Shown here piece after piece: positions 8,983 to 39,025 of a DNA stretch of 64,000 bases (within the stretch, counting starts at the first letter, position 1; each line of letters begins with the position of its first letter). This DNA comes from Candidatus Methanoperedens sp. BLZ2 (GTDB taxonomy: Archaea > Halobacteriota > Methanosarcinia > Methanosarcinales > Methanoperedenaceae): assembly GCF_002487355.1 (NCBI RefSeq), contig NZ_NTMG01000066.1, positions 1 through 64,000 of the forward strand, read 5' to 3'. The position numbers and the translations under genes were made by a program. The notes below the pieces were generated by a model. That model was not told the DNA's origin. It made no database searches and saw nothing but the letters and a program-made list of their open reading frames with translations.

Positions 8983-9699
8983 ATGAACATGGAAAGGATA
9001 AAAACAGGTATTTCGGAACTGGATGATATAATAGGAGGATTTCCTGCGGGAAAGACTATTATTATCACGGGTGATCCGGGAAACGGAAAGACTATTTTCG
9101 GGCTTCAATTCGCATATACGAATTGCCTGGAAGGCAAAAAGACAGTATATGTTTCCACGGAGGAAGATGCGCCGGAGCTCAGGCAGCAGGGAAAATCATT
9201 TGGCTGGAACCTTGAAGCTATCGAGAAAAAAGGATTGTTGAATTTCGTTGAGCTTGCAGGATACAGGGCGATGGAAATAAAGACAGCATTATCCATCAGT
9301 CTGGAAGCTGTTAAAGGTGATTTTACACAATTTTTGGATAATCTGCCTGTTGATACCAATATTCTCATTATTGATAGCCTCGGTAGCCATGTATCAAATC
9401 TTACTTCATCCGAGTTCCGTGACAGGTTCAATCTTCTTGTTTATAACATGTCACAAAAAGGAATTACTACATTCATCCTTCTTGGTGGAGTTGTTTCCAG
9501 GGAATTCGTTGAATTTGCACTTTTCTCGGCTTACGGCGCTATCCAGCTTATGAAACGAGAAAATCCTTACACCGGGCGCAGGGAAAGGGTGATGGATATC
9601 GTGAAAATGAGAAATACAAAGACTCCTGTCCAGTTATTATCTTATGAAATCTCATCTAAGGGAATAATTATTACTAGTCCTATTGATTCATCCGATTGA
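8983..9699 (+). CDS. KaiC-like RecA-fold ATPase
   Basis: The start at 8983 follows AAGGAG with correct spacing and gives 238 aa. A longer frame exists upstream but lies inside the previous gene. The protein has one RecA/KaiC domain: GISELDDIIGGFPAGKTIIITG, Walker A GDPGNGKT at about residues 29-36, the acidic pair STEEDA near 60, and Walker B NILIIDSLGS around 125. It is half the size of cyanobacterial KaiC and lacks the second domain. Single-domain KaiC-like proteins are common in archaea next to signalling kinases; some are thought to act as regulated ATPase switches. Here it closes the kinase/receiver operon. Its 3' end overlaps the convergent downstream gene by 12 bases. Confidence 0.9.
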   Translation: MNMERIKTGISELDDIIGGFPAGKTIIITGDPGNGKTIFGLQFAYTNCLEGKKTVYVSTEEDAPELRQQGKSFGWNLEAIEKKGLLNFVELAGYRAMEIKTALSISLEAVKGDFTQFLDNLPVDTNILIIDSLGSHVSNLTSSEFRDRFNLLVYNMSQKGITTFILLGGVVSREFVEFALFSAYGAIQLMKRENPYTGRRERVMDIVKMRNTKTPVQLLSYEISSKGIIITSPIDSSD

Positions 9700-10362
9700 T
9701 GTATTTACCTTTTCCCGGATATTGCGCTCAATCTCATCAAAAGCTGGCGGCCTGATCTGGAAGATATCAATACCTTCAGGGAATTCTATTGGCCTTCCAT
9801 CAGTGATGATGAGGATACCGCTTGAATCAGCATGTAATTCTCCAAGTATCCTGGTTGCCGATTTTCCCATTTCATCCTGTATTTCCTGTATCTTTTTTGT
9901 CAGGTATTCCCTCCATCTGTCAAAATTGATGTCTTTGCCATAATAACCTTTATGGATTTCTTGTACTTCAGGATAAAAAGATTTTGAGTATTCCTCAAAT
10001 AGCAGCTTTGACCGCTCCAGCTGGCCGGTTTTTTCAATGCCCTTCACAACTGCTCCATTATCCAGAAGACCTTTTATTAACTTGTAGTGATTATTATCTT
10101 TTCCAATTTTTTCGAAATATTCAAGACCTGCTACTTCGTCTTCGTTTACTCCTTCTATATAAATTATACTGATCTTTCCATAGGTTGATATGAAATAATT
10201 TATCTTTTCCCTTACTTCTCCCCAGAATCTTTCCACTTTTACCATATCAATATTATATTGTGAAGCGAGTTCTTCAAAAGGAAGTGTGGGGACAACATAT
10301 AATTTACGTTTTGCCAAAAAGGTTGATGCTTCCGGTTTTTCAATTTTCCCTAACTCTGCCAT
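9688..10362 (-). CDS. Uncharacterised 224-aa soluble protein
   Basis: I do not recognise this family. The protein is soluble and mixed alpha/beta: a first strand-rich part (KLYVVPTLPFEELA), a segment that looks like a Rossmann-type strand (KISIIYIEGV, about 63-72), a long helical middle with many charged residues (100-180) and a second strand with an acidic end (GILIITDGRPIEFPEG, about 184-199). It has a good start but only a weak ribosome binding site (AGAAGAG). It is convergent with the KaiC-like gene, overlapping it by 12 bases, and is separated from the surface operon by a hairpin, so it is probably transcribed alone. Confidence 0.75.
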   Translation of the reverse strand: MAELGKIEKPEASTFLAKRKLYVVPTLPFEELASQYNIDMVKVERFWGEVREKINYFISTYGKISIIYIEGVNEDEVAGLEYFEKIGKDNNHYKLIKGLLDNGAVVKGIEKTGQLERSKLLFEEYSKSFYPEVQEIHKGYYGKDINFDRWREYLTKKIQEIQDEMGKSATRILGELHADSSGILIITDGRPIEFPEGIDIFQIRPPAFDEIERNIREKVNTSIG

Positions 10363-10548: not shown

Positions 10549-11208
10549 TCAGATTTTACCCCATTTCTTCAGTGCGACACCTGTCAATCCGATGACTGCA
10601 AAAACACCCAAAATCGTATAGAAGTTGAATGCGGATTCAGTTTTTAAAGGTGCTGCGTTGGTAGTAGTCGGGATTTCCTTTGTTATTTCCTTTGTTGTTA
10701 CTTCCGATGCGGATTTTATGGGTGTAACTGCAGACTGTGGTACAGTTGTTGGTTTAATTCCGCCTCCGGAAACTCCTCCTCCACTTCCGCCACTTGGTCC
10801 GTTAGTGGATCCGCCAGGGCTACCTCCAGATTTTTCACTGATAGCATTGAGATTAACACGAATAAGTGTGCCAGCATTCTTTGAATCATACGTGAACTGG
10901 GTTGATGGTGTTGCTTTGATGCCATTTACATAAAAATCAACACTAGCTCCATCACTTGCAGCTACTGGAAGCCTGTCGTTCGCTTTTTCTCCATAAGTTC
11001 CTCCAGTTAGAACACTAGTAGCTCCAGCCGGGCTAGTTCCTGCTTTTGCGGTTATTGTTGTACCCGCCGGCGCTGGATTTCCGTCAATTTTAACGTCCCC
11101 GTACAACATTACAGGTAAACTTGGTGGGCTTTCGGCGCTCGCCATACCAGCCGAGAAAGCGATAGCTATACAAATTATTATTATAGTTAATATTTTTTTA
11201 CTTGACAA
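10549..11208 (-). CDS. Secreted, membrane-anchored surface protein (219 aa)
   Basis: The start is TTG, chosen because AGGTGA lies six bases before it and the frame then begins with a clean signal peptide (IIIICIAIAFSAGMASAE, cleavage near residue 26). The extracellular part begins with a strand-rich domain (YGDVKIDGNPAPAGTTITAKAG) that resembles the carboxypeptidase-regulatory/transthyretin type of fold. A low-complexity Gly/Ser linker follows (about 125-145), then a Thr-rich stretch and a C-terminal membrane helix ending in KKWGK. The layout resembles archaeal C-terminally sorted proteins, but I do not see a PGF motif. It is the last gene of the dockerin-cohesin operon and could anchor part of that complex. 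Confidence 0.8.
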   Translation of the reverse strand: MSSKKILTIIIICIAIAFSAGMASAESPPSLPVMLYGDVKIDGNPAPAGTTITAKAGTSPAGATSVLTGGTYGEKANDRLPVAASDGASVDFYVNGIKATPSTQFTYDSKNAGTLIRVNLNAISEKSGGSPGGSTNGPSGGSGGGVSGGGIKPTTVPQSAVTPIKSASEVTTKEITKEIPTTTNAAPLKTESAFNFYTILGVFAVIGLTGVALKKWGKI

Positions 11209-11296: not shown

Positions 11297-12808
11297 TTAG
11301 GGACTATATGCAGGCAATGACGTATTCTGAGTTGCCCAAACCCAGTAACTTATTTTGGGCTGCATCATGAATACATCGGTTCCGACATGTGTTTCGTCAA
11401 TATTACCACTCTTGCCGTTGATGCCTGCCTTATCATAGCTCTGAGTTGAAACATTAAAGTTCCAGATGCTATAATAGTCAGTATCTATTGCCCCAAGCAT
11501 CGTTTCAGCATTTCTCGCAGTAGTATCGGTGGTTCCTATAAGGTTCCATCCTTTCTTCACATCGAGAGACGAAGGTACCTGTGGTTGTTCGCCGCTCTTG
11601 CGTACAAGATTGGTTATATCCTGCGATGTATCCATATGGATCAGGTAACCTTTCAATGGTTCAAAATTCGTCACTCCGCCAACATATGTCTTAGTAACCG
11701 GGTCAAAGCCGAAAAGCCCGTCATACTGAATTCCATTCAATACGTAAGCTACCGTTGAGTTGTTCAATTGGTAGGGTACTGAAATGAACTTCCAATTAAA
11801 TGCGGGCGTTCCTGATACATTCACTTGTCCATCATTTACCGTAGTGTTGGCAATAGTGGTCGTGGTAGTGTCCATTAAGCTCACATTATCCAGGTCAAGA
11901 CTATAGATTCCTGATGCGCTGTTCATCGCTGTGAATTGCACGGTTATAAATGTGCCATTTACAGGCGCTGCAGCACTGGATGTTCTGGCAATTCCATATT
12001 TTATCCTCCCAGAACTGATTCCACTTCCAGGCTCAGTCAGTGCATCTACACCCAACAGGTTTCCTGCAGTAACTGAATTAGCTGCAAGTTGTGTTGCATC
12101 GTAGTTCAGTTCAACATGCGCAAACTGTACATTAGCGCTTCCCGAATCGATATTCACAGTAAAAGTGAATGTTCCGCCAGGCGCCACTACCTGTGTTGAA
12201 GGAGACACGAATACTGTGGCTCCTCCAGTACCTGGTGTGGGTGTTGGTGTCGGAGTTGGAGTTGGCGTTGGTGTCGGAGTGGAAGCACCAGGGGTTCCTG
12301 ATACATTCACTTGTCCATCATTCACCGTAGGGTTGGCTATAGTGGTCGTGGTAGTGTCCATTAAGCTCACATTGTCCAGGTCAAGACTATAGATTCCTGA
12401 TGCGCTGTTCATCGCTGTGAATTGCACGGTTATAAATGTGCCATTTACAGGCGCTGCAGCACCGGATGTTCTGGCAAGACCGTATATTACTTTCCCTGGG
12501 GTTCCGGTTCCACTTCCAGGCTCAGTCAGTGCATCTGCACCCAACAGGTTTCCTGAAGTAACTGAATTGGCTGCAAGTTGTGTTGCATCGTAGTTCAGTT
12601 CAACATAAGCATACTGCATATTAGTGGTTCCCGAATCGATATTCACGGTAAAAGTGAATGTCCCGCCGGCTGCCACATTCTGTGTCTGGGGTGACACGCT
12701 AACAGTCGCTGCTGATCCTGCGCCTGCAATTGCTAAAATAATAAAAAGGGAAAGAGAATAGACCAGTATTGGTCTATTTCTTTTTTCCTTTTCAATTTTG
12801 GTGTTCAT
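11297..12808 (-). CDS. Secreted protein with two cohesin domains
   Basis: This 503-aa protein starts after AAGAGGT and has a signal peptide to about residue 33. Two cohesin-type domains (about 34-168 and 195-330) share VSPQTQ/VSPSTQ openings, the VELNYDATQLAANSV core and the YSLDLDNVSLMDT closing part, and are nearly identical. A Pro-Thr linker (about 174-192) joins them. The C-terminal 170 residues (FNWKFISVPYQL...GWNLIGTTD...YWVWATQ) contain two W-N-L/F-I-S/G motifs seen in other archaeal surface proteins, of unknown role. Cohesins bind dockerins through calcium-dependent contacts. The gene immediately upstream, 21 bases away, encodes a dockerin, so the two products are likely partners outside the cell. 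There is no membrane anchor in this protein. Confidence 0.88.
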   Translation of the reverse strand: MNTKIEKEKRNRPILVYSLSLFIILAIAGAGSAATVSVSPQTQNVAAGGTFTFTVNIDSGTTNMQYAYVELNYDATQLAANSVTSGNLLGADALTEPGSGTGTPGKVIYGLARTSGAAAPVNGTFITVQFTAMNSASGIYSLDLDNVSLMDTTTTTIANPTVNDGQVNVSGTPGASTPTPTPTPTPTPTPTPGTGGATVFVSPSTQVVAPGGTFTFTVNIDSGSANVQFAHVELNYDATQLAANSVTAGNLLGVDALTEPGSGISSGRIKYGIARTSSAAAPVNGTFITVQFTAMNSASGIYSLDLDNVSLMDTTTTTIANTTVNDGQVNVSGTPAFNWKFISVPYQLNNSTVAYVLNGIQYDGLFGFDPVTKTYVGGVTNFEPLKGYLIHMDTSQDITNLVRKSGEQPQVPSSLDVKKGWNLIGTTDTTARNAETMLGAIDTDYYSIWNFNVSTQSYDKAGINGKSGNIDETHVGTDVFMMQPKISYWVWATQNTSLPAYSP

Positions 12809-12829
12809 AGTTTATACCTCTTTAGCTTG

Positions 12830-15800
12830 TTACACACTGCAGCTTGTTCCGTAGTTGGCCGCGAACAACACGAAGTCCTGGCTGTTTATTTCACTGTTGT
12901 TGTTCATGTCAGCTTTGACGTTGTACCTCGAATCTCCACTCACTGAATTGTATGCACTGGCGAATAATACGAAGTCTGCACTATTTATGGAGCCATCGCC
13001 GTTTATATCGCCCTGGCATGTTGTTCCTGGTTGTGGTGTTGTCGTTGTTGGTGTTGGTGTCGGTGTCGTCGGTGTCGGTGTTGATGCTGCTTGACCATTG
13101 ACATAGATATCTTCTGCATTTGCCGGGTCATGCCAGAACTTGAGTCTATCTCCGATCTTGGTTTCAATTGGTTTCACTGGATCATTGTCCCAGATATGCG
13201 TTACCGCTTCTGGTGCAACAAAGCCGGTTGTTACCAGGTATTGCTGTTCTTTCGGTAGAATGAACTCAGTGAACTGATCAGGCTTTGTTTGGAACCATTC
13301 GATTGTCCAGTGTTCCTTTAGTGTATTGTTGACAAAGGTCTCCCAATAGATTTCCTTGAGTTCACCTTTGAATCTGGATTCTTTCTCCTCTTTTATCCAG
13401 GTAATTCCAAGCGGATTCCTCTCTACCAGTGGGCCCATCTTATCGTGAGTCCATGTATCCTGTACGTCTTTCATCACAGTATGTTTCATGTTGTACTGTG
13501 GCATCTCTGGCAGCACTTCTCCATTCTTCCAGTCTCTCAGGTGGACGCCATAGAGTTTGATCGGTTCCTTTGGCAGTTTCTGCCTGAACGTGATGTACTT
13601 GAATGTGTCATCTGAGTTACTGTTAGCCTTTATTGCTACGACATTGTAGAACACATTATCCACAATGAATGCTTTCTGGTTCCAGTATTTATTTGCACCG
13701 ATGTTCGCAGACAATTGGCCGAACAACCTGCCGACCTTTATTGTAATAGTATCCGGGCCATTTCCTCTGGCTACGGCCTCGACCTTTACAAAGAACGGTC
13801 CCTGGACTGAAGCACCTGTGTTATCCATACCTCTTGAGAAGAATTTCACTTCACCAGATCCAAGGACGACTTCAGCCGTCTTCAAACCGGTCGGTGTAGA
13901 CCCTTCTTGTGAGTATATTTCCAGAATAGCTGCATCTATGCCATTTACTTTTGTCGTACTCTTGAAACTCACTTTGTGATCGAAGAACTGGACTTCATCA
14001 CCAATATTGAGAGTGTTATGGTCGCCTTCCTGTGGATCAGCAAGCAGGAGAACTACACTTTCATCAGAGCTTACCCCTTTGCCGTCCGGATCCATTTTCT
14101 CAACTATTCCGTCATTATCTATGTCCATTCCAAGAGTCCTTTCGCTCTCAATCTGTACAAGGTCCGGTACTCCATCGGAATCTGCATCAAAGCTGTCTAT
14201 GCCATTATCAGCTACTGCGGAAGCCATCGGTATATAGAATCTGCTTCCGTTTGGCACAAGCGTTGGTTGCTTATTGTCATCCAGGAACATGAAAGTGAAT
14301 TCCTGATTAACGGATGGTCCATATACGTCACCTTCCCCTGAAACATCATTTTCAGGATTGTTGTGCTCTCTGAGCCTCCAGCCGTCGTGGTGAGACTTCG
14401 GTAGGTTATCATGGAAGACCGTTTCCCAATCCTTTAAATCTATTGGGTTTTCCAGGGAATTGCCATTCTTATCTTTGGTGACCTTGGTACCATTCTTGTC
14501 TTCAACAATAACATCCCATTCTCCATCTTTGTCTTCATCCTTGAACCACTCTTTCTCGTACCACATTCGCTTGAAGAGTTTCTCTGCAGGCGTCTGGATG
14601 TTGGCATCCCTTATGAATATTCTGCTGTAAACGTTGTCTATAACACCGTTGTTGTCAAAGTCATTGTCGTTATGCAGCATAATAATCGGATCGAATGTTA
14701 CGTGATCTTTTCTCGGTGCCTCTCCAGCCTGTGGGAAGAATGGTGCTACTGGATCAGTGTATGGTTTGTTCTCTGGATCTAATCCGGTTAATGGGTCTTC
14801 GATTTCAAAGTTACCCGGTCCTTCACCGAAGGTACCGTATAATCTCAGCGAACCAATGGATTGTCCTCCGTTTGTCCCTGTGACCTCATTGACATAAAGA
14901 CCAAAATTATTCTGGGGTTCATGTCTGAACTTCAAGCGATCACCTGTCCATGTCTTAATTGGAGTCTTCGGGTCATTGTTCCACAGGTGGAATTTTGCCT
15001 CCGGTGCTTCGAATCCTGTGGTTACAAGATAGTCCTGCCCTTTTGGCAACACGAATTCTGTGAACTGCTCGGGCATTGTATTGAACCATTCAATTGTCCA
15101 TATTTCATCTGATCCACCTGGTACTATTGGTGCCTTACATGCCAAAGTGCTTGTAGAGTTAACCATAAGCTCAAACTGAATCATCTTATTCAGTTCTGTT
15201 CCATTGCCAAAATTGGCAAAGTCCCAGTCAAGTGCACTATATGTTATGAACCCTTTGCCCTGTGAACCACCAACTCTTGAATACATATGGCCCGGACCAC
15301 TTACGTTCAATATATTCGTGGCATGCATATCTTCACACCAATCAGTTCCATTAGTTGTCACCACATTAGCATCTCCGACTGCATCGGTTGATGTTGTTAA
15401 GGCCAATGTATTAATATATTTTGGAGTTCCATTAACTGAGTTGGAAAGATCATTCTCTTCAGTTATATTGAGTATGCCTCCCCTTGCTCCCGCCTGTCCT
15501 GGGACTGATGTTTGGAAGATAAGGTTTGTTGGTAGCCAGTCATAAATGTTTGGTTGTAACGTCGTTGCTCCGGCATCACTATCCCATATTATGATTTTGC
15601 CTCCACCATTTACAAAGTTGACAAGTTCTGTTTTCTGGGCCGGGGTCATATCTGCAATGTTCACCTGGAATAGGATCACTGTATCGTTTGATCCGGTACT
15701 GACGAAACTGCCTATCGGTACCCTGGTTATGTTTAAGACACCTGCATCAAATGATCCATTTACCATATAGTCGGCAGGATTTAATGCAGTTACACCGCCA

Positions 15801-17527
15801 ATATTTACACCATCTACAATCAACACATTCCGGCTTGATATGAATGTTGAAGGACCAATTGGCCCGGGTGTGCCGCTGCCTGCTTTACGGGTCTCATTGT
15901 ATATCTCCTTGAGTTCGCCCCTGAATCTTGGTTCTTTTTCTTCTTTGATCCAGGTTATTTCAAGTGGCTCCTTCTGGGCAATTGGGCCCATCTTATCGTG
16001 AGTCCATGTATCCTGTACATCTTTCATCACAGTATGTTTCATGTTGAACTGAGGCATCTGTGCTAGCACATCTCCATTTTCCCAGACTCTCATATGTATT
16101 CCGTAGAGCTTGATCGTGTCTTTTGGCAGTTTCTGCCTGAACGTGATGTACTTGAAAGTGTCAGTTGTTCTATCACTGTGAGCTTTTATTGCTACAATAT
16201 TATAGAATACATTATCCACAATGAATCCTTTCTCGTTCCAGTAATTATTTGCTCCAATGTTCGCGGCCAACTCACCGAACAATCTTCCGACCTGTATTGT
16301 AACTGTATCCGGGCCATTTCCTCTGGCTACGGCCTCGACCTTTACAAAGAACGGTCCTTGGATTGCCTTCCCTGTATTGTCAATGCCCCTGGAGAAGTAC
16401 TTTACGTCACCTGATTGCATGATCACCTGTGCGGTAATCTTGCCTGTAGGCGCTGTGTCTTCCTGTGAGGAGATTTCAAGGATAGCTGCATCCACACCAT
16501 TTACTTTGGTTGTGCCCTTGAAATTTACTTTGTGATCGAAGAATTGTACTTCGCCGCCTATACTGAGAGTATTATGGATACCTTCATTTGGATCGGCAAG
16601 TACAAGCACTACATTTTCATCAGAACTTACTTCTTTGCCGTCCGGGTCCATTTCCTGGTTTCTATTGTCAATATTGATCCCAAGGCTCCGCTGGCTCTCT
16701 ATCTGCACAAGGTCCGGTACTCCATCGGAATCCGCATCAAAGCTGTCTATGCCATTAGTAGCTACTGCGGAAGCCATCGGTATGTAGAACCTGCTACCTG
16801 TTGGGGCAAGAGTCGGCTGCTTATTGTCATCAAGGAACATATAGGTGAATTCCTGAATAATAGATGGGCTGTATACATCACCATCTCCTCCATTATTTTC
16901 TGGATTGTTGACCTCCCTGAGCCTCCAGCCTTTTTCTTGAGACTCCGGTAGATTGTCATGGAAGAATTTTTTGAAATCATCCAGATGGATTGTTTTTACT
17001 AGATTACCGTTCTTGTCTTCAACAATAACATCCCACATTCCATCTTTGTCTTCATCTTTGAACCAGTCTTTCTCGTACCACATCCGCTGAAAGACTTTCT
17101 CCGCTGGTGTCTGGCTGTTAGGATTATTTATAATTATCCTGCTGTAAACACTATCATAGACACCATTTTTGTCGAAGTCATTGTCGTTGTGTAACATAAT
17201 TATTGGATCAAAAGTAATGAAATCCTTAACAGGCGACTGATTCGACTGCGGGAAGAAGGGCGCAATTGGATCCGTATATGGTGGATTCTCAGGTTTCAAT
17301 TTTGTTAAGGGATCTAAAAGTGTATGATTCCCCGCCCCTTCACCGAACGTGCCGTATATTCTTAAACTATCCGTGGCTGCATTTTCTGTTGCAAATGCAA
17401 TTCCAGTCAATGCCACCATTACTGCAAGCACAGTAATAATTCCGATTTTTTTCTTTAATTCTACTCTTTGTATACATAAAACTGCAAGCATTGCAGTTAA
17501 TATTCCTGTTCTATTTTTCTTTTTCAT
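12830..17527 (-). CDS. Giant duplicated surface protein with C-terminal dockerin
   Basis: The start at 17527 follows a strong GGAGGAG, giving 1565 aa with a signal peptide near residues 27-46. An upstream in-frame ATG at 17602 lies in the leader and is not needed. The protein has two homologous halves, about residues 50-550 and 890-1400, both opening with RIYGTFGEG or RLYGTFGEG. Each half has many Asp-rich loops of EF-hand or thrombospondin-3 type (DNDFDKNG, DEDKDG, DADSDGVPD) that suggest calcium binding. Only the first half is followed by an extra domain (about 552-805) with DTVILFQVNI and FVNGGGKIIIWDSD, like a class I amidotransferase/ThuA-type fold. After a Thr-Pro linker (about 1480-1500) the last 60 residues are a dockerin: two Ca-binding repeats, GDINGDGSINSADF and ADMNNNSEINSQDF. 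It may be an S-layer or sheath component. Confidence 0.87.
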   Translation of the reverse strand: MKKKNRTGILTAMLAVLCIQRVELKKKIGIITVLAVMVALTGIAFATENAATDSLRIYGTFGEGAGNHTLLDPLTKLKPENPPYTDPIAPFFPQSNQSPVKDFITFDPIIMLHNDNDFDKNGVYDSVYSRIIINNPNSQTPAEKVFQRMWYEKDWFKDEDKDGMWDVIVEDKNGNLVKTIHLDDFKKFFHDNLPESQEKGWRLREVNNPENNGGDGDVYSPSIIQEFTYMFLDDNKQPTLAPTGSRFYIPMASAVATNGIDSFDADSDGVPDLVQIESQRSLGINIDNRNQEMDPDGKEVSSDENVVLVLADPNEGIHNTLSIGGEVQFFDHKVNFKGTTKVNGVDAAILEISSQEDTAPTGKITAQVIMQSGDVKYFSRGIDNTGKAIQGPFFVKVEAVARGNGPDTVTIQVGRLFGELAANIGANNYWNEKGFIVDNVFYNIVAIKAHSDRTTDTFKYITFRQKLPKDTIKLYGIHMRVWENGDVLAQMPQFNMKHTVMKDVQDTWTHDKMGPIAQKEPLEITWIKEEKEPRFRGELKEIYNETRKAGSGTPGPIGPSTFISSRNVLIVDGVNIGGVTALNPADYMVNGSFDAGVLNITRVPIGSFVSTGSNDTVILFQVNIADMTPAQKTELVNFVNGGGKIIIWDSDAGATTLQPNIYDWLPTNLIFQTSVPGQAGARGGILNITEENDLSNSVNGTPKYINTLALTTSTDAVGDANVVTTNGTDWCEDMHATNILNVSGPGHMYSRVGGSQGKGFITYSALDWDFANFGNGTELNKMIQFELMVNSTSTLACKAPIVPGGSDEIWTIEWFNTMPEQFTEFVLPKGQDYLVTTGFEAPEAKFHLWNNDPKTPIKTWTGDRLKFRHEPQNNFGLYVNEVTGTNGGQSIGSLRLYGTFGEGPGNFEIEDPLTGLDPENKPYTDPVAPFFPQAGEAPRKDHVTFDPIIMLHNDNDFDNNGVIDNVYSRIFIRDANIQTPAEKLFKRMWYEKEWFKDEDKDGEWDVIVEDKNGTKVTKDKNGNSLENPIDLKDWETVFHDNLPKSHHDGWRLREHNNPENDVSGEGDVYGPSVNQEFTFMFLDDNKQPTLVPNGSRFYIPMASAVADNGIDSFDADSDGVPDLVQIESERTLGMDIDNDGIVEKMDPDGKGVSSDESVVLLLADPQEGDHNTLNIGDEVQFFDHKVSFKSTTKVNGIDAAILEIYSQEGSTPTGLKTAEVVLGSGEVKFFSRGMDNTGASVQGPFFVKVEAVARGNGPDTITIKVGRLFGQLSANIGANKYWNQKAFIVDNVFYNVVAIKANSNSDDTFKYITFRQKLPKEPIKLYGVHLRDWKNGEVLPEMPQYNMKHTVMKDVQDTWTHDKMGPLVERNPLGITWIKEEKESRFKGELKEIYWETFVNNTLKEHWTIEWFQTKPDQFTEFILPKEQQYLVTTGFVAPEAVTHIWDNDPVKPIETKIGDRLKFWHDPANAEDIYVNGQAASTPTPTTPTPTPTTTTPQPGTTCQGDINGDGSINSADFVLFASAYNSVSGDSRYNVKADMNNNSEINSQDFVLFAANYGTSCSV

Positions 17528-19730: not shown

Positions 19731-20945
19731 ATGAACATTGCACTTTTAGCGCCTGAGTTTATGCCAAACTGGGGGGGAGCTGGAACGTATATAGTTGGAC
19801 TGGCTAAAAATCTGTCAAAAAAACATAATGTCCATGTTGTGACAGTTAGAAGAAAAATTGATAAGGGTTCTGCTTATACCGATGAAAAAATCCTTGATTT
19901 TTTTGAAAATAAAATCCAACTACATACAATTTCAAATGCTAATGATACCTTTCTTTATAATGCTGCCTTCCAATATTCATGTTTTAAGGAACTCCCCATG
20001 ATATGCAAAGAAAATAAAATAGATATTATCCATGCTGATGTTCCCCATATGTCTGACGTGATATTGAGATTATTAAAATCAAATAAGAACATGGTAACAA
20101 CAGTACATACTATTATCGAAGGGCATAAAGAGGGGATTCTGGCTTCTGGACTTGATTTCAGTCAGATGGAGGCCTCTGAGAAATATACACTTGAGCTATA
20201 TCCCCTGCTAAAAATTATTCAGAGACTCTATTTGAAAAGATCTCCTACAATTATAGCGGTTTCAAATTGGATGAAAGGACTACTTGAGCAGAACTATGGA
20301 ATTAAGGATGTGAATGTGATCCATAACGGGGTAGATCATGAGCAATTTTTACCAAAGAGAAAAAATACTGGAAAAGTATTTGAAACAAATAAACCTGTTG
20401 TGTTATTTTCAGGAAGGTTCATTGCATTAAAGGGGATCAATATTCTGGTAAAAGCAATGCGGTATGTGATCAGTGAAACTAAATGTGTTCATTTTGTTTT
20501 TGCTGGTCCGGAAGCAGATAGAAAGTGGGTAAGCATGTTTGAAAATGAAGGTATTCCGTCACATTATTATTCTTTGTTAGGATATATTCCACATGCCGGG
20601 ATGCCTGAAATATATTCAAATTCATCAATTTTTGTTCTTCCAAGTCTAATAGAAAGTTTTCCGTTTAGTGTTCTTGAAGCAATGAGTTCAGGACTTGCTG
20701 TAATTGCATCAAATGTTGGTGGTGTTCCTGAACTCATAGAAGATGGGGTTGATGGGTTGCTGGTTCCTCCCGGAAATCCAGAAATATTAGCTAAAAAATT
20801 ATTATTTTTATTGAACAATGAATCCGAAAGAAACAAAATATCAAAGAAAGCACGTGAAAAAATATTAGAGAAATTTACGTCTGAAATAATGACAAATGAA
20901 ACAGAGAAAATTTATGAACAAATATTAAAAGGGATTACTACATGA
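19731..20945 (+). CDS. Glycosyltransferase family 4
   Basis: The start MNIALLAPEFMPNWGG (404 aa) places the typical GT-B N-terminus first; an ATG 15 bases upstream adds five residues. The N-domain has NWGGAGTYIVGLAKNLSKKH. The C-domain has VVLFSGRFIALKGINILVKA and the donor-binding ESFPFSVLEAMSSGLAVIASNVGGVPELI, with the E-x7-E signature of GT4. The acceptor is unknown. The stop overlaps the start of the next radical SAM gene by 4 bases. The last 20 residues (TSEI...TEKIYEQILKG) recur at the end of the deacetylase two genes downstream, an echo of a local duplication. Confidence 0.92.
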   Translation: MNIALLAPEFMPNWGGAGTYIVGLAKNLSKKHNVHVVTVRRKIDKGSAYTDEKILDFFENKIQLHTISNANDTFLYNAAFQYSCFKELPMICKENKIDIIHADVPHMSDVILRLLKSNKNMVTTVHTIIEGHKEGILASGLDFSQMEASEKYTLELYPLLKIIQRLYLKRSPTIIAVSNWMKGLLEQNYGIKDVNVIHNGVDHEQFLPKRKNTGKVFETNKPVVLFSGRFIALKGINILVKAMRYVISETKCVHFVFAGPEADRKWVSMFENEGIPSHYYSLLGYIPHAGMPEIYSNSSIFVLPSLIESFPFSVLEAMSSGLAVIASNVGGVPELIEDGVDGLLVPPGNPEILAKKLLFLLNNESERNKISKKAREKILEKFTSEIMTNETEKIYEQILKGITT

Positions 20946-22378
20946 ATGTACTATTAGTTAACCCACCCAGATTTAAAAAAATGTCTGTTATCAGGGAAGA
21001 GCGGTGTGAGATTATTGAAAGAAACTCAGTTTTACCCCCATATAGTCTTCTCCAGATCGCATCTCTTCTTCGAAAAAAAGGACATAAAGTTAATCTTATT
21101 GATGCAAACGGAGAGGATATCGAATATACAGATCTTGAAAAATTGCTTTCTGAAAAAGATTATGAAGCAGTTATCTTCAGGTTCACACCTACAACTTTCG
21201 ATTGGGACACAAAGGTTGCCACAATTTCAAAAAAGTATTTTGATGCTCCTACAATTGGCATCTGTTACACTCTTGGCAATTTTGCACGGACTGTACTGAA
21301 TGAAGCGAAAGACCTGGATTTTTATATATGGCATGAATATGAGGTTGTGGCGCCACAGCTTATTGACCAGCTCTCTAAGGGTGAAGATCTCCTAAATGTG
21401 GCAGGAATTGCATATCACTGCAATGGTGTAATACAAGTTAACGAAGATGCCCGGCCTATAGAAAATTATGATGATATACCTTTACCTGCATATGATTTGC
21501 TAAAGTCTTTTCAATTCTACTATGAGAATACAAAACATGGGCAACCCTTCACAATAATATACACGAGCAAGGGTTGTACATATTCTTGCATTTACTGTAC
21601 TGTTGCTAAAACAAAATGGAAGGCAAGGTCTGCTGAGAGTGTGATCAGGGAATTGCTGTATCTTAAACAGAATTACAATATTAAAACCGTAATGTTTTTC
21701 GATGAAACTTTCACTATGGATAGGAAACGGGTTGAGAAGATTACGCAGGCAATTGTGGATGAAAAGCTGGATATCAAATGGTATTGTAACTCCAGGGTTG
21801 ATCTTATAGACATGGATCTTCTTCAAAAAATGAAGCAGGCAGGATGTGGTGCGGTTAGCATGGGAATAGAATCCGGGAGTCAGAAGATTATGGCTGGAAC
21901 GGATAAGAAAGCATCTGTTGAAATGGCGAGTGAAGCAATTAAAATGGTAAAAGATGCGGGGATCAAAGTAAATTGCAGCTTTATTTTTGGATTGCCAGGT
22001 GAGAACTGGGAGACTGTGAATGATACAATTAATTTTGTCAGGCAGACTCTTCCCACTGGCGCTCAATTCAATGTAGTGGCGCCTTATCCGGGAACAAAAT
22101 TGTATGACATTGCTATGGAAAAGGGATGGATAACGAAAAAGACAGATTTCAGGAGCATGTTTCAGCATGAATCGATTATGAGGACAGATGAATTAACAAC
22201 AGAAGAACTGGAAAGTGCAAGAAAAAAGGCATACAGGGCAATATATTTTTACCCTCGATGGTGGATTCAGAATATTGGATATGTACTTAAGAATCCGGAT
22301 GATTTGATCCTTGCAAGTAATCACATTATTAAAATACTGAGTAATTATTTAATTAACAAAATGGATTTTGCGCATTAA
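20942..22378 (+). CDS. B12-binding radical SAM enzyme (copy 1)
   Basis: The 478-aa protein has an N-terminal cobalamin-binding-type domain (about 1-150; LLVNPPRF...LPPYSLLQIASLLRKKGHKVNLIDANG) that lacks the usual DxHxxG His ligand, so the cobalamin may be bound base-off without it. The radical SAM core follows, with the cluster motif CTYSCIYC (CxxxCxxC) near residues 212-219, then MGIESGSQKI and the FIFGLPGE motif. A C-terminal helical extension follows. Relatives act as methyltransferases or rearrangement enzymes on lipids, sugars or cofactors; the substrate here is unknown, though the setting suggests a glycan or lipid carrier. It is very similar to the gene at 23276. Confidence 0.9.
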   Translation: MNVLLVNPPRFKKMSVIREERCEIIERNSVLPPYSLLQIASLLRKKGHKVNLIDANGEDIEYTDLEKLLSEKDYEAVIFRFTPTTFDWDTKVATISKKYFDAPTIGICYTLGNFARTVLNEAKDLDFYIWHEYEVVAPQLIDQLSKGEDLLNVAGIAYHCNGVIQVNEDARPIENYDDIPLPAYDLLKSFQFYYENTKHGQPFTIIYTSKGCTYSCIYCTVAKTKWKARSAESVIRELLYLKQNYNIKTVMFFDETFTMDRKRVEKITQAIVDEKLDIKWYCNSRVDLIDMDLLQKMKQAGCGAVSMGIESGSQKIMAGTDKKASVEMASEAIKMVKDAGIKVNCSFIFGLPGENWETVNDTINFVRQTLPTGAQFNVVAPYPGTKLYDIAMEKGWITKKTDFRSMFQHESIMRTDELTTEELESARKKAYRAIYFYPRWWIQNIGYVLKNPDDLILASNHIIKILSNYLINKMDFAH

Positions 22379-23275: not shown

Positions 23276-24694
23276 ATGAAAGTTTTACTGGTGAACCCAC
23301 CAAGGTTTAAAAAAATGGCTGTTATCAGGGAAGAGCGGTGTGAAATTATAGAGAAAAATTCAGTATTACCTCCATACAGTTTGCTCCAGATAGCCTCTCT
23401 TTTACGAAGACAGGGGCATAAAGTTAGTCTTATTGAAGCGAACGGGGAGAATATCGAATATCCGGATTTTGAGAAATTGCTTTCCGGGGAGGATTATGAA
23501 GCAGTTATTATCAAGTTCACTCCTTCAACTTTTGACTGGGATATGAAAGCTGCATCAATTTCAAAAAAGCACTCAGATGCCCCTACAATTGGCATCTGCT
23601 GGACTCTTGGAAATTTTGCACGGACTATCCTGAATGAGGCAAAAGATCTTGATATTTACATAAGACATGAATATGAGGTGGTAACGCCGGATCTTATTGA
23701 CAGGTTAGCTAAAGGACCCGAACTTTCAGATGTGGCCGGGATTGCATACCGTTCTGATGGTGAAATAATAATCAACAGGGACGCTGATCCTATAAATAAT
23801 TATGACGACATACCTATCCCTGCTTATGATTTATTGAAATCCTTTAATTTATATTATGCGGATACCAAACATGGCCAACCTTTTACGATAATGTATACAA
23901 GTAAGGGCTGCCCCAACTCCTGTATATATTGTACAATGGCAAAAACCAAATGGAAAGCAAGATCTGCGCACAGCGTACTTGAGGAACTGAGATATCTTAA
24001 GCAGAATTACAATATTAAAACTATAATGTTTTTTGATGAGGTCTTTACTTTAGATAAGAAACGGGTCGAGAAGATTACTCAGACAATTGTAGATGAAAAG
24101 CTGGATATCAAATGGTATTGTAATTCCAGGGTTGATCATATAGACATGGATCTTCTTCAAAAAATGAAGCAGGCAGGATGCACGGCCGTTAGCATGGGAA
24201 TAGAATCCGGGAGTCAAAAGATCATAGGTGGAGCCAATAAAAGAATATCAGTTGAAGAATCAGCTAAAGCAATACAAATGGTCAAAGATGCAGGAATTAA
24301 GGCGTATTGCAGTTTCATTTTCGGATTACCGGGTGAAAACAGCACCACTGTCAAAGAAACGATCGAGTTTATTAAACGAACACTTCCCACAGGCGGTGAA
24401 TTCAATGTTGCAACGCCTTATCCGGGAACCAGGCTTTATGAAATCGCTCTGGAAAAAGGGTGGATAACAGAACAAACGGATTTCAGGAGCTTGCTTCAGA
24501 ATAAATCGATTATGAGAACTGAGGAATTAACAAGTGAAGAGATAGATAAAGCCAGGGAAATGGCGCATCAGGCGATATTTTTGAATCCTAAGTGGTGGAT
24601 TCAGAATATCAGATACGTCATCCAGAATCCGGACGATTTCAACCTTGCCAGTAAATACGCCATCGGCGCATTAAAATTAGCTTTCGGACATTAA
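23276..24694 (+). CDS. B12-binding radical SAM enzyme (copy 2)
   Basis: The 472-aa protein is a close paralog of the gene at 20942, with the same domain order: B12-type domain, CPNSCIYC (CxxxCxxC) cluster near residue 212, MGIESGSQKI, FIFGLPGE. By eye the two are roughly three-quarters identical, and long DNA stretches are also the same. The start follows GGGGATTAG after the deacetylase stop, with a 2-base gap. Keeping two similar copies in one operon may reflect two sequential modifications, or simply a recent duplication. The substrate is unknown. Confidence 0.9.
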   Translation: MKVLLVNPPRFKKMAVIREERCEIIEKNSVLPPYSLLQIASLLRRQGHKVSLIEANGENIEYPDFEKLLSGEDYEAVIIKFTPSTFDWDMKAASISKKHSDAPTIGICWTLGNFARTILNEAKDLDIYIRHEYEVVTPDLIDRLAKGPELSDVAGIAYRSDGEIIINRDADPINNYDDIPIPAYDLLKSFNLYYADTKHGQPFTIMYTSKGCPNSCIYCTMAKTKWKARSAHSVLEELRYLKQNYNIKTIMFFDEVFTLDKKRVEKITQTIVDEKLDIKWYCNSRVDHIDMDLLQKMKQAGCTAVSMGIESGSQKIIGGANKRISVEESAKAIQMVKDAGIKAYCSFIFGLPGENSTTVKETIEFIKRTLPTGGEFNVATPYPGTRLYEIALEKGWITEQTDFRSLLQNKSIMRTEELTSEEIDKAREMAHQAIFLNPKWWIQNIRYVIQNPDDFNLASKYAIGALKLAFGH

Positions 24695-29266: not shown

Positions 29267-29797
29267 CTATCTGGTTTTTCTATTGATTCCACCGGCTGCC
29301 ATCGCTGCAGAAATAATCAATAATACACTAGCTGCGATATTCTCACTTGATATTGCCGGCTCTCCTATTCCCATGTTCATTATTCTATCACTGATACCGT
29401 ACTCTAATGCGGGTATGAAACTGCCATCGGTGAATAAAAGTTCTGCATGGACAAAAAATATATCGTGGTAAACAGGATAAAACAGAGATATACCTCCGGT
29501 AAAAAGGTCAAGAATAAGATGCGACGTAAGGTAGAAGCAAATTATGCCGGACACTTGCCGTCTTTTTTTTACAAAAATAAGTAACAATAGAGGGATTATT
29601 ACTATGAATACATTGTGAAATAGTACTCTGTGAAGCGGGGTAGGGCTAAATTTCAGCACGAAAAAAAGGCTATCTGCATCTGGAAGTGCTGCAAAAAAAC
29701 TAAGGGTAATCACTTCTGTCGGATTCAGTTTAAGCTTCTTTGAAAATAAGAAAAGTATCGCAACCGGAATAAATATATGATTGAACAAAGAGGACAT
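29267..29797 (-). CDS. DUF457/YdjM-like membrane protein (copy 1)
   Basis: The 176-aa protein has four hydrophobic segments and the conserved residues of the DUF457 (YdjM) family of putative membrane metal-dependent hydrolases: NHIFIPVAI at the start, LPDADSLFF, LHRVLFHNVF (two histidines) and SHLILDLFTGG. The conserved Asp and His residues lie near the membrane and may hold a metal. The biological role is not known. It is separated by 6 bases from the flippase gene in both cassette copies, or slightly more in copy 2, which suggests the two act together. It is roughly 70% identical by eye to the protein at 37194. Confidence 0.85.
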   Translation of the reverse strand: MSSLFNHIFIPVAILFLFSKKLKLNPTEVITLSFFAALPDADSLFFVLKFSPTPLHRVLFHNVFIVIIPLLLLIFVKKRRQVSGIICFYLTSHLILDLFTGGISLFYPVYHDIFFVHAELLFTDGSFIPALEYGISDRIMNMGIGEPAISSENIAASVLLIISAAMAAGGINRKTR

Positions 29798-29803
29798 TGT
29801 TCA

Positions 29804-31084
29804 TCACTTTGTCACTGTTAATATCGATTTTAGGACAAATCCTGCCATGTTTCTCATTTTATAGACCACAAAAAGCGCAACCAAAGTATTTGCTGCAAGA
29901 TAAGCAAAGGCTGCACCCTCGATGCCTGAACTCCTTAGAAGAGGCAGGGCAAAGACAAGAGTAAAAACAGCAATTGCAGAATTGATCTTCACCACACTAA
30001 ATACTCTTTTTTGAGCATTCCTTATTGTGATGAAAATAATGTTCAGAGACATAGGCAGGCTTGCAGCTGCAAGGATCATAAGTGTGGTTGATGAGTTTAA
30101 GGCATAGGTTGGATTAAAAAGATTCAGGATAAATTTGCCGAAAAACACAAAAATAAGAATCCCCGGAAAAAGAAGGGCTGCATTTAATTTTATTGCCTTC
30201 TTCACTTTCTGCCACAATTCTCCACTATCTGAGGATTCTGCGAGAAGTGAATTTGATATTGCCTGTGGGATTCCATATAGCAAACCTGCAATCATCATTG
30301 CGATGTAAAAGAATCCTGTTGATTCAGTAGAAACCATATTAATTATCATTATAGGCAGTATAAGTCGCGGAAGAGTAAAGAATACATCTGCAAGATAGTT
30401 CCCTGCCGAGTATCCTGCCATGCTCTTGATTATGGGATCAAGCATAGGAATGGGTAAATATCCTTTCCATAACAAGGACAACAAAAAAAAACCCGTTATC
30501 ACCGAAAGCAGCACACCTATGCCCCATGCCATAAATATACCCATAGCTCCGAAAACTGAAAAAACCTGGAGGGGAAGAATCTTGAATAAACCGAAAAGCA
30601 TTTCTTTCGTCATATGAAATGATGATTTTCTTCCTGCTATGAATGCGCTGCTTATGTTCGCTGAAGTAGTGTAAAAGGACGTAACTGCAGCAAAAAGTAT
30701 GACGTACTTTAAATTACTAAGGATAGATTTCAATGGTGGCGCCCAGATATCAAGCCCAAAAACAAATATGGATGAGAAAACAAGCGATGCAACGATACTT
30801 GAAGTCAGGCATGAGTTTATTATCTTGCTGGCATTTTCCCTGTTCCTTGGTAGGTAGAATATGAAAGCCGTTTGGAAGCCCAGGCCGCTTATCATTGAAA
30901 GCAGGAGCATGCTTGATAATAATGCCGATATTGTTCCAACTTCATCCGGTGAATAGTATCTGGCAGCTATAATCCAGAAAACGAAGCCAAGGAGGAGGTT
31001 CAAAAAATTTGCTCCTATGAGATAGAAAGAATTTTTGAGAAGAGGGTCATTATAGATTTCGCTGAATAAGCGCATATTGTTCAT
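29804..31084 (-). CDS. Polysaccharide flippase, Wzx/MATE-like (copy 1)
   Basis: The 426-aa protein has 12-14 predicted membrane helices and the usual opening of the oligosaccharide flippase family: NSFYLIGANFLNLLLGFVFWIIAARYYSPDEVG. It should move polyprenyl-linked glycans across the membrane for assembly outside. The paralog at 37745 starts at a Met equivalent to residue 4 here (MRLFSEIYND), so that Met at 31075 may be the true start; neither has a strong ribosome binding site. In copy 2 the FemAB gene lies directly next to the flippase, whereas here a radical SAM gene intervenes. Confidence 0.92.
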   Translation of the reverse strand: MNNMRLFSEIYNDPLLKNSFYLIGANFLNLLLGFVFWIIAARYYSPDEVGTISALLSSMLLLSMISGLGFQTAFIFYLPRNRENASKIINSCLTSSIVASLVFSSIFVFGLDIWAPPLKSILSNLKYVILFAAVTSFYTTSANISSAFIAGRKSSFHMTKEMLFGLFKILPLQVFSVFGAMGIFMAWGIGVLLSVITGFFLLSLLWKGYLPIPMLDPIIKSMAGYSAGNYLADVFFTLPRLILPIMIINMVSTESTGFFYIAMMIAGLLYGIPQAISNSLLAESSDSGELWQKVKKAIKLNAALLFPGILIFVFFGKFILNLFNPTYALNSSTTLMILAAASLPMSLNIIFITIRNAQKRVFSVVKINSAIAVFTLVFALPLLRSSGIEGAAFAYLAANTLVALFVVYKMRNMAGFVLKSILTVTK

Positions 31085-31127
31085 ATAGTGCGAAGTGATA
31101 AAAACATTCCGAAGGGAAATTCAATTT

Positions 31128-32192
31128 TCATTCAAAATAACAGCTTTTACAAAATTCAGGTATATTATGGGTTCTAATCCTCTCACGTAATACCATATAT
31201 TCTCTTGAATTCCAAATATCACTAAAACTTGTTTCAAAAAGATTTCCCATTTTTAACGTATGGGAATCAGCAATATTGCAGCAGGGAATAACGTCACCAT
31301 TCGCTGCAATATAAGCACTGGTCCAAGGCCAATAACATTTATTCTTTCTTGAAAAACCTGTGCTCATTATTTCCAGAATTATTTTTTCTTTTTCAGCAGC
31401 ATTTTTTGCTTCTAGCCATATATAGTCAAATTCTTTAGATTTTAAATCTATTCTAATAGTTTTATTATATCGGTCAATGTTGTTTTTTCCCCAATTTACA
31501 AGAGTGGTTTGTAAATAAATGGAATCTACGCTTAATAATTTTGACAGTTTGACTATTTGGGTGGCTTCATGAATGTTGTTTTTAGTAATTACAGACCATA
31601 TTGATAAACGAGGATATATATTCAAACCTCTATGATTAGCCAAATCTCCAATATTCCTAAGGATTTTTTCAAAATTACTCCCTTTTCTAATCTTTTCATG
31701 GATTTCCGGGGTTGCCCCATCAATACTAAAACAAATATGAGTATTTTTTAATTGAATCAATTTTTTAGCTAAGTGTTCATCATAAATAGTTCCATTAGTA
31801 AAAACTAGCATTGAAATTCCACGCTCTTCTCCTTCTTTCAACATAAAAGGTAATTGTCTGTTAAGAAAAGGTTCTCCCATCCCCTGTAATTTAGCTGATA
31901 ACAGATAAGGAAATTGGTTTAAGATGTATCGATAAGATTTTATATCTAAATATCTGATGTCTTTTGTCCAATGGCTCACTTGACAGTGCTCACATCTTAA
32001 ATTACAATTGTTGTTAGGTTCAATATCAATCGTTGCTGGCAAAAAGGGTACTTTCTTTAACTTGAAAAAGTAAGCAACTATTATGCCAACTAAATTAATA
32101 CTTTTATATATTTCACCACGTTTTATCGCCAAAATAAATAACTTATAGTATTTTGATTTATTTCTAATATATCTGAACCATTTAAATAGCAT
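31128..32192 (-). CDS. Radical SAM/SPASM domain protein
   Basis: The 354-aa protein has the radical SAM motif CNLRCEHC (Cys63, Cys67, Cys70), then LQGMGEPFLN and SIDGATPEIHEKIR, typical of the SPASM group. The C-terminal SPASM region has CYWPWTSAYIAANGDVIPCCN and ends in CKSC, enough cysteines for one or two extra iron-sulfur clusters. SPASM enzymes modify peptides, proteins or small molecules. Within this cassette a surface-polysaccharide or anchor substrate is plausible. It is present only in copy 1: in copy 2 the flippase and FemAB genes are separated by 27 bases. It may be a lineage-specific insertion or a deletion from copy 2. Confidence 0.88.
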   Translation of the reverse strand: MLFKWFRYIRNKSKYYKLFILAIKRGEIYKSINLVGIIVAYFFKLKKVPFLPATIDIEPNNNCNLRCEHCQVSHWTKDIRYLDIKSYRYILNQFPYLLSAKLQGMGEPFLNRQLPFMLKEGEERGISMLVFTNGTIYDEHLAKKLIQLKNTHICFSIDGATPEIHEKIRKGSNFEKILRNIGDLANHRGLNIYPRLSIWSVITKNNIHEATQIVKLSKLLSVDSIYLQTTLVNWGKNNIDRYNKTIRIDLKSKEFDYIWLEAKNAAEKEKIILEIMSTGFSRKNKCYWPWTSAYIAANGDVIPCCNIADSHTLKMGNLFETSFSDIWNSREYMVLRERIRTHNIPEFCKSCYFE

Positions 32193-32278
32193 TTTATACC
32201 ATCATTTGACAGTGGTTTTTTCCATATATAGTTTTCACATTCTTTTAGTAGCCACATTCGTTAGAATTGACTATATTC

Positions 32279-33460
32279 CTAAGTAACCTGGGTTACGGTT
32301 TTAAATTTTATTTTTTTACTTTCCTCCATTTGTTTTATCCTGTAACAATATAATCTATAATTCTCCAATAAACTATGTTTCTTAATTTCTTCAAATAGAA
32401 ATAAGTAATTTAACATTTTAAACTTTAACCTGGAAATGGGACCTTTTGTCATCATGACGACCCTGTTGTTGCTCCTTAACTTAGGCTGCCATCTTAGCTT
32501 ATATGCCTCCTCCCCTCTTAAGAAGTCAAATTCTTTTAAGCCTCTACCGATCAAATCCTTTAGTATATATAAAATATGAATGTTACCAACCGAATTAGAA
32601 TAATCGGGGTCAAATGCAGTCTGATAATAGTAATATTTCCCATAATATTCAAAACCCAGAACACCGGACGCATGCTGTCCATTTATATCTAAGAAGGAAA
32701 GATTCAGCCAGCCATTCTGTGCAAATTTTTTTGCAACTTCAGTCAAAAATCCTTTTTGGGTTGTACTAAAACAGGGTACACCCTGGTAATTCATTTTCTT
32801 TTGATGCATTTCCCAGAAGTCAATCAAGTTTTTTTCCAATGAAATTGTTGTTGAGAATTTTTTAAATTGTATATGGCCTATTTTTTTCTCGATTTTTTTC
32901 TCACCTTTGCGTAAATTTCCCCTGAACTTAGTACTCAGCATCTTCAGGTGGTCGTCCAATGATGATTGGATAAGTATGTATGGGGAAAAACCTGTATTTT
33001 TTTCTCCTATGAACATTGAATCCTGGCTGAAAGATGGGTTTTTCAGTATATTAAAGAACTTTGAATCACCGGGTATCTGATCGAAACGAAGTGTAAGTTT
33101 ATTATTGTCAAGATAATATTTTATCAGGCTAAACATCTCCTTGAGTTGACCGTCATCAGGGTCGGAATAAATAATACCTCCGTAATCAGATGAATTCAGC
33201 CCGATATTTTCAACAACATCATGGCTGAAAAGAAAGGTGCGATAAGTTGAACAGAGCAATGGAATAATTCCAATTATTTCATCCCGATCTTCTATCATTA
33301 ATATTTTTAACTTTTTGTTATCGCTAAAGTGACCCCACCATTCGAAGAGCCATTCCCATGTTAAAAATATGTTTTTATCTCTACCCTTTGCCAGCACATC
33401 ATTCCATGTCCCCCTCATAGATTTGAAATCATCAACTCTATTTATTTCTCTTATTCTCAT
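32279..33460 (-). CDS. FemAB/BioF2-like GNAT acetyltransferase (copy 1)
   Basis: The 393-aa protein belongs to the double-GNAT FemAB/BioF2-like group: MRIREINRVDDFKSMRGTWNDVLAK at the N-terminus, FLTWEWLFEWWGHF, and in the second half FLRGEEAYKLRWQP, a conserved signature of this family. Members transfer aminoacyl or acyl groups to amino sugars or peptides, often in polysaccharide loci. The acceptor here is unknown. It is the first gene of the copy-1 cassette; upstream, beyond about 170 bases, lies the 109-bp MITE. It is a paralog of the protein at 39026. Confidence 0.9.
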   Translation of the reverse strand: MRIREINRVDDFKSMRGTWNDVLAKGRDKNIFLTWEWLFEWWGHFSDNKKLKILMIEDRDEIIGIIPLLCSTYRTFLFSHDVVENIGLNSSDYGGIIYSDPDDGQLKEMFSLIKYYLDNNKLTLRFDQIPGDSKFFNILKNPSFSQDSMFIGEKNTGFSPYILIQSSLDDHLKMLSTKFRGNLRKGEKKIEKKIGHIQFKKFSTTISLEKNLIDFWEMHQKKMNYQGVPCFSTTQKGFLTEVAKKFAQNGWLNLSFLDINGQHASGVLGFEYYGKYYYYQTAFDPDYSNSVGNIHILYILKDLIGRGLKEFDFLRGEEAYKLRWQPKLRSNNRVVMMTKGPISRLKFKMLNYLFLFEEIKKHSLLENYRLYCYRIKQMEESKKIKFKTVTQVT

Positions 33461-37193: not shown

Positions 37194-37718
37194 TTACTCT
37201 GTTTTTCTATGGAATGCGATAGCTGATATTGCTGCACAAATAGCCAATAATATAACGAATGCGACATTCTCACTTGATACTGCTGGCGCTCCTATACCAT
37301 TGTTCATAATTCTATTGCTAATACCATATTCCAGCGCTGGTACAAAACTACCATGGCTTAACAAAAGTTCTACATGGGCAAAAAATACTTTGTTGTAAAC
37401 AGGATAAAACAGGAATATACCGCCGGTAAACAGGTCTAGAATCAGATGGGACGTAAGGTAGAAGATAATTATGCCGAAAACTTCCCGCTTGCTCTTTGCG
37501 AACATAAAAAACAAGAGAGGAATGATTACTATAAAAATATTATGAAATAGTACTCTATGAAGCGGGATACCATTTGAGCTGAAAAAAATGCTGTCTATAT
37601 CCGGAAGCATTGCAAAAAAACTAAGAGCAATTACTTCTCTTTGATTCAATTTGAGCTTCTTTGAAAATAAGAGAAGTATCGCAACCGGGATAAAAATATG
37701 GTCAAGAGGAGAGGACAT
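37194..37718 (-). CDS. DUF457/YdjM-like membrane protein (copy 2)
   Basis: The 174-aa protein is a paralog of the one at 29267, with the same four hydrophobic segments and metal-site pattern: LPDIDSIFF, LHRVLFHNIF and SHLILDLFTGG. The spacing before the first conserved HR is a little shorter. It follows the flippase gene by 26 bases on the minus strand. Conservation of the Asp/His residues in both copies supports a real function, whose substrate is unknown. Confidence 0.85.
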   Translation of the reverse strand: MSSPLDHIFIPVAILLLFSKKLKLNQREVIALSFFAMLPDIDSIFFSSNGIPLHRVLFHNIFIVIIPLLFFMFAKSKREVFGIIIFYLTSHLILDLFTGGIFLFYPVYNKVFFAHVELLLSHGSFVPALEYGISNRIMNNGIGAPAVSSENVAFVILLAICAAISAIAFHRKTE

Positions 37719-37744
37719 AAATTATTACTTTTTATTTGCATTCA

Positions 37745-38998: not shown

Positions 38999-39025
38999 AA
39001 TTCAGTCTCGTTTCAAAATTTATGA

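Follow-up and report, generated by a model that had tools for sequence, protein, structure and literature searches.

A dockerin and double-cohesin gene cassette of Candidatus Methanoperedens as a candidate archaeal surface-assembly unit

Introduction

Earlier work on ANME archaea (PMC5244752, PMC9012536, PMC10553843) has reported cohesin and dockerin proteins and, in the passages that deal with them, tied these to adhesion or to attachment at a surface. The relevant passages of Chadwick et al. (2022; PMC9012536) and Timmers et al. (2017; PMC5244752) list such proteins with their counts, including some that resemble scaffoldins and transporter components that bear dockerins, and Murali et al. 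(2023; PMC10553843) describe adhesins reported there as highly expressed in consortia. It has long been noted that methanogens and methane-oxidizing archaea have dockerins and cohesins, to which no partners or role have been assigned. The locus described here carries three genes, called A, B and C, which look like a conserved cell-surface building device without a role in cellulose breakdown.

Results

The three genes lie in the window, that is, the whole stretch of 64,000 nucleotides of Candidatus Methanoperedens sp. BLZ2 that was analysed (Table 1). The start of gene A was placed at an ATG behind GGAGG, giving 1565 aa; a longer alternative open reading frame of 1590 aa begins at a TTG. The large, acidic, secreted protein was predicted to end in a complete two-repeat dockerin, and this was indeed found: Dockerin_1 (PF00404) scored 32.9 bits near the C-terminus (cutoff 22.9, E 7e-8), and the calcium-ligand pattern is kept in both loops, DINGDGSINSAD and DMNNNSEINSQD, position 5 of the second being Asn in place of Asp. 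Among solved structures the nearest to it is the dockerin 2y3n_B of a cellulosome (E 3e-9); in A, the two-loop dockerin is part of a protein that is not cellulosomal. The remainder of A is an internal duplication of two REP+TAIL modules of about 580 aa, with REP parts 74% identical, the first copy being split by a weakly DUF4350-like inserted domain. The duplication, the inserted domain and the second dockerin/cohesin set of the genome (see below) were absent from the original prediction.

Table 1. Positions of the genes and domains of the cassette in the window.
Feature	Position	Strand	Remarks
Gene A, secreted 1565-aa protein: two REP-TAIL modules, one inserted domain, C-terminal dockerin	12830..17527	(-)	
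REP core, first copy, ~aa 54-546, calcium-type acidic loops	15890..17368	(-)	74% identical to second copy
Inserted domain, ~aa 576-805, weak DUF4350-like match	15113..15802	(-)	
TAIL, first copy	14888..15106	(-)	
Second REP-TAIL module	13088..14860	(-)	AF2 model, pLDDT 86, pTM 0.88
Type I dockerin of A, two calcium loops	12866..13012	(-)	Pfam PF00404
Gene B, secreted 503-aa protein: two cohesins and C-terminal WNL domain	11297..12808	(-)	
Cohesin 1 of B	12302..12700	(-)	AF2 + Foldseek
Cohesin 2 of B, 85% identical to cohesin 1	11816..12199	(-)	
WNL domain, aa 341-494 of B, homologous to C-terminus of dockerin-less A proteins	11327..11788	(-)	
Gene C, signal peptide, conserved ectodomain, C-terminal membrane helix, basic tail	10549..11208	(-)	

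No Pfam family exceeded its cutoff on the REP part, no catalytic domain was recognised above cutoff anywhere in A, a PADLOC search of A gave no match, and the REP-TAIL model had no significant Foldseek match in the PDB. In the Thermoplasmata locus L096 and in several dockerin-less relatives, the REP/TAIL slot is filled by a VWA domain. The best fit to this architecture is a display platform with exchangeable modules on the cell exterior, probably adhesive or matrix-forming. The tandem duplicated beta-rich modules also bring to mind an S-layer-like lattice into which A would be tied by B and C, instead of being a separate adhesive or matrix protein, and, ranked by E-value, a Methanosarcina S-layer domain (3u2g, E 0.028, probability 0.41) is indeed second among the PDB matches. 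That match is, however, non-significant and its TM-score low, so that only a weak fold resemblance links A to the S-layer family DUF1608 (PF07752), for which there was no sequence or profile match. An hhalign comparison of the REP profile with 34 DUF1608 domains found nothing, and REP was rejected as a relative of these domains. Moreover, the genome holds many canonical S-layer domains and A occurs in only four of the 31 genomes of the genus. We regard membership of such a lattice as improbable and retain the adhesive or matrix platform.

Gene B starts 21 bp past the stop of A and carries the two cohesins expected in the neighbouring gene, Pfam PF00963 scoring 82.7 bits across two stretches (E 4e-23) of a secreted protein; the profile scores of both module types, proposed from the outset as a check, are thus significant. 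Its C-terminal domain was named WNL after a GWNL motif. Gene C encodes 219 aa with a signal peptide, a C-terminal hydrophobic helix and a basic tail (hydropathy and inspection), consistent with the membrane-anchored surface protein foreseen for the third gene; Gram_pos_anchor gave a sub-threshold match only. A glycoside hydrolase was detected neither in the three genes nor, by Pfam, on any of the genome's three dockerin proteins, and B had no CBM match in Pfam. The unit is accordingly, as the original prediction had it, not a typical cellulosome, which would combine dockerin-bearing glycoside hydrolases with a CBM-bearing scaffold.

The complex, whose modelling had also been proposed, was addressed with AF2 by joining the dockerin through a linker to cohesin 1 in one read-through chain (pLDDT 89, pTM 0.78, with a low-confidence linker at about 43). 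The pTM value suggests a docked arrangement for this single cognate construct; cohesin-dockerin complexes formed part of the AF2 training data. Foldseek matched the model to type I cohesins and to the archaeal cohesin 2xdh.

The cassette is preceded upstream by histidine-kinase and KaiC-like genes on the opposite strand. Farther out, past a winged-helix gene, comes a glycan cluster that encodes beta-helix surface proteins, glycosyltransferases and a flippase-type product. Genes of the flippase type, YdjM and GNAT acetyltransferase are present as two similarly ordered sets in a glycan cluster (window 29267-33460 and 37194-40195), which suggests a segment duplication. Paralogous B12-binding radical SAM genes (20942-22378 and 23276-24694) flank a PIG-L deacetylase gene. 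Structured RNA upstream of A was discarded, with sub-threshold matches only, and the gene at 9688-10362 was dismissed as a fourth cassette member, since it does not directly follow C in the close relative L045.

The cassette was searched for in 200 genomes of the class and in a named genome collection. The A-B-C order recurs in Ca. Methanoperedens, Methanolobus, Methanosarcinaceae MAGs, GoM-Arc1 GB37, an ANME-2 MAG and Thermoplasmata, and the C-ectodomain profile matches the gene after B wherever an A-B locus is long enough to show one. Archaeal dockerin and cohesin proteins were already known; judged from the sequences, A-B-C is a recurring cassette and not an incidental pairing. It is accessory in the genus, since only 4/31 genomes carry A, which was present in 30 of the 393 genomes of the phylum sample. 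Two bacteria-labelled contigs, L086 (CSSED10-310) and L099 (WOR-3), carry near-archaeal A-type genes and are probably misbinned. At L157:10747-15501, A-B-C is followed by a second C-type gene, a papain-family protease whose dockerin is very like that of A, and a cohesin protein whose terminus is of the PGF type.

The cassette of METP1, the Ca. Methanoperedens bioanode strain (PMC9039326), raises another reading, in which the complex would display electron-transfer modules for extracellular electron transfer. In this cassette (L076:10001-17102), B combines a CGVCH motif with a cupredoxin domain (E 1e-10) and A has a cytochrome-like domain below cutoff (E 3e-5); the A of the congener G140 has a CANCH cytochrome domain at cutoff. 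CXXCH motifs are, however, confined to METP1 and G140 among the A and B proteins of the set. The window's own A and B have none, for which reason a redox role was rejected for them, and this reading of the complex seems to us quite unlikely.

The dockerin on A and the cohesins in the next gene occur together. All 25 non-redundant loci with a dockerin on A, including the short bacteria-labelled contig L086 and GB37, whose dockerin was called by Pfam and missed by the local profile, have cohesins in the next gene, whereas a cohesin was detected there at none of the 12 loci with a complete A, no recognised dockerin and a visible next gene, one of which (L161) has a dockerin-like tail; these counts (25/25 and 0/12) are phylogenetically non-independent. 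Seven dockerin-less A proteins carry WNL at their own C-terminus (E 1e-3 to 1e-14), and separately built profiles of 14 B termini and of 10 dockerin-less A termini, the latter including the Methanophagales (ANME-1) locus L101, aligned with 98.9% probability (E 3e-17). WNL is thus fused to the end of A at ANME-1-type loci and stands behind the cohesins in B elsewhere. Because WNL sits at the C-terminus of dockerin-less A proteins, the dockerin-cohesin joint appears to stand in for a covalent REP-WNL link. In two Anaerolineae loci (L080:1-5238, L083:7718-14926), REP repeats, dockerin and cohesin are found in one polypeptide, and these two proteins could chain head to tail.

Co-divergence was evaluated by correlating between-locus distances per domain, with the REP of A controlled for, in a sample dominated by Methanolobus loci. 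The dockerin-cohesin correlation was 0.80 (permutation P 2e-4, 24 loci), and P was 5e-4 for both dockerin-cohesin and WNL-C in 20 loci. With the first REP as control (N=18), the values were 0.80 and 0.79 for dockerin-cohesin and 0.66 for WNL-C ectodomain, as against 0.14 for REP end-dockerin and 0.23 for cohesin-WNL, which are neighbours within one gene; a thinned 10-locus set gave 0.60 and 0.82. Among different domains, strong co-divergence was thus restricted to two pairs, dockerin/cohesin and WNL/C ectodomain. As both pairs span gene junctions and lie near each other in the DNA, single recombination tracts over these junctions could be the source of part of the signal, but equally near domains inside one gene do not co-diverge, which argues against simple linkage. 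Compared with G140 (L045), the window has identities of 84% for WNL and 72% for C, as against 30-35% for the cohesins and 37% for the dockerin, whereas compared with METP1 the dockerin is 76% and the cohesins 69-74% identical. In the window strain, the dockerin and both cohesins therefore look as though they had been exchanged as one block, while WNL and C stayed congener-like.

Partners elsewhere in the genome, which might have explained the pair better, were sought on the genome's contigs, where three dockerins and five cohesins were counted; the assembly comprises 85 contigs and further copies could be missing from these totals. Contig C59 encodes a 628-aa cohesin-cohesin-dockerin protein adjoining a cohesin protein, and contig C40 (L010:242-2536) a dockerin protein that bears a CBM4_9 domain. 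The C59 set (L009:8774-11808) lies beside multiheme cytochrome genes, and its pair has counterparts of 87-90% identity in G140; scattered among the cytochrome genes are three paralogs of 480-491 aa (L009:1443-8165). One cohesin scaffold usually serves several dockerin proteins. B might likewise be a general scaffold for other dockerin proteins, such as the CBM-bearing C40 protein, its adjacency to A being incidental, and two further dockerins are indeed available in this genome. Identity is nevertheless only 24-26% between the dockerin of A and those of C59 and C40, as against 43% between the latter two, and about 30% between the cohesins of B and those of C59; these low identities suggest two dockerin/cohesin specificity groups in the genome, A and B being one. 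Since the dockerin and cohesin of the locus also co-diverge, we consider a general scaffold unlikely and keep A as the probable partner of B.

Discussion

From a mechanistic point of view, A, B and C would likely form a surface-display chain, in which the dockerin of A binds a cohesin of B and the WNL domain of B binds C in the membrane. The domains, gene order, co-occurrence, co-divergence and fused form on which this chain is built are all seen at the sequence level, and gene order, dockerin/cohesin association and co-divergence lend support to the two steps of the original prediction, that A binds B and that the third gene could fix the complex. The C-terminal helix would hold C in the membrane, and its ectodomain may offer the docking site for WNL. 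Each cohesin of B would take one A through a calcium-dependent dockerin, B thus acting as a putative adaptor, two-valent here and up to three-valent elsewhere, that would fix the large, acidic, beta-rich A to the cell surface. So held, A may serve as an adhesive or matrix platform with exchangeable inserted domains. The covalent A-WNL fusion of ANME-1-type relatives would do the same job as the dockerin-cohesin joint. Contact between WNL and C is the weaker step of the chain, since, beside A proteins without a dockerin, the ectodomain of the anchored protein does not look related to that of C.

More broadly, the cassette may be a widespread archaeal surface-assembly unit made of two matched pairs, dockerin with cohesin and the previously unnamed WNL with the C ectodomain, the former pair swapping for a fusion and being exchangeable as a block because its halves are encoded side by side over a gene junction; we find this plausible, if somewhat short of probable. 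If true, block exchange would alter binding specificity while cargo and anchor remain unchanged. The locus supplies a candidate cognate pair, a candidate second anchoring pair and predicted non-cognate controls, and relatives of the cassette exist in cultured Methanolobus species, so that what archaeal cohesin-dockerin systems assemble becomes directly testable here. The cassette also offers new candidate orthogonal binding pairs.

No description of the A-B-C cassette was found in open literature text, and the supplementary list of PMC9012536 may hold members. The non-cellulosomal archaeal systems (Timmers et al., 2017, PMC5244752; Chadwick et al., 2022, PMC9012536; Archaeoglobus fulgidus cohesin, PDB 2xdh) likewise have secreted cohesin or dockerin modules without cellulase context, and the relevant passages of the two papers propose adhesion or surface attachment, as we do; in those passages neither the cassette nor its REP family, WNL domain or fused form is described. 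The adhesins of syntrophic sulfate reducers and ANME-2c (Murali et al., 2023, PMC10553843), likened here by their description only, are similar to A-B in the adjacency of cohesin and dockerin genes and in the adhesion proposed, but belong to different host lineages. Tandem duplicated, secreted, beta-rich modules are shared by A and the Methanosarcinales S-layer protein (DUF1608, MA0829), although A has neither profile similarity nor a significant fold match to it. With the clostridial cellulosome and its type I cohesin-dockerin interaction, A-B shares the module folds, the calcium loops and a multivalent cohesin scaffold. It differs in that there is no cellulase, the scaffold has no CBM, and one large dockerin protein has its own adaptor encoded beside it.
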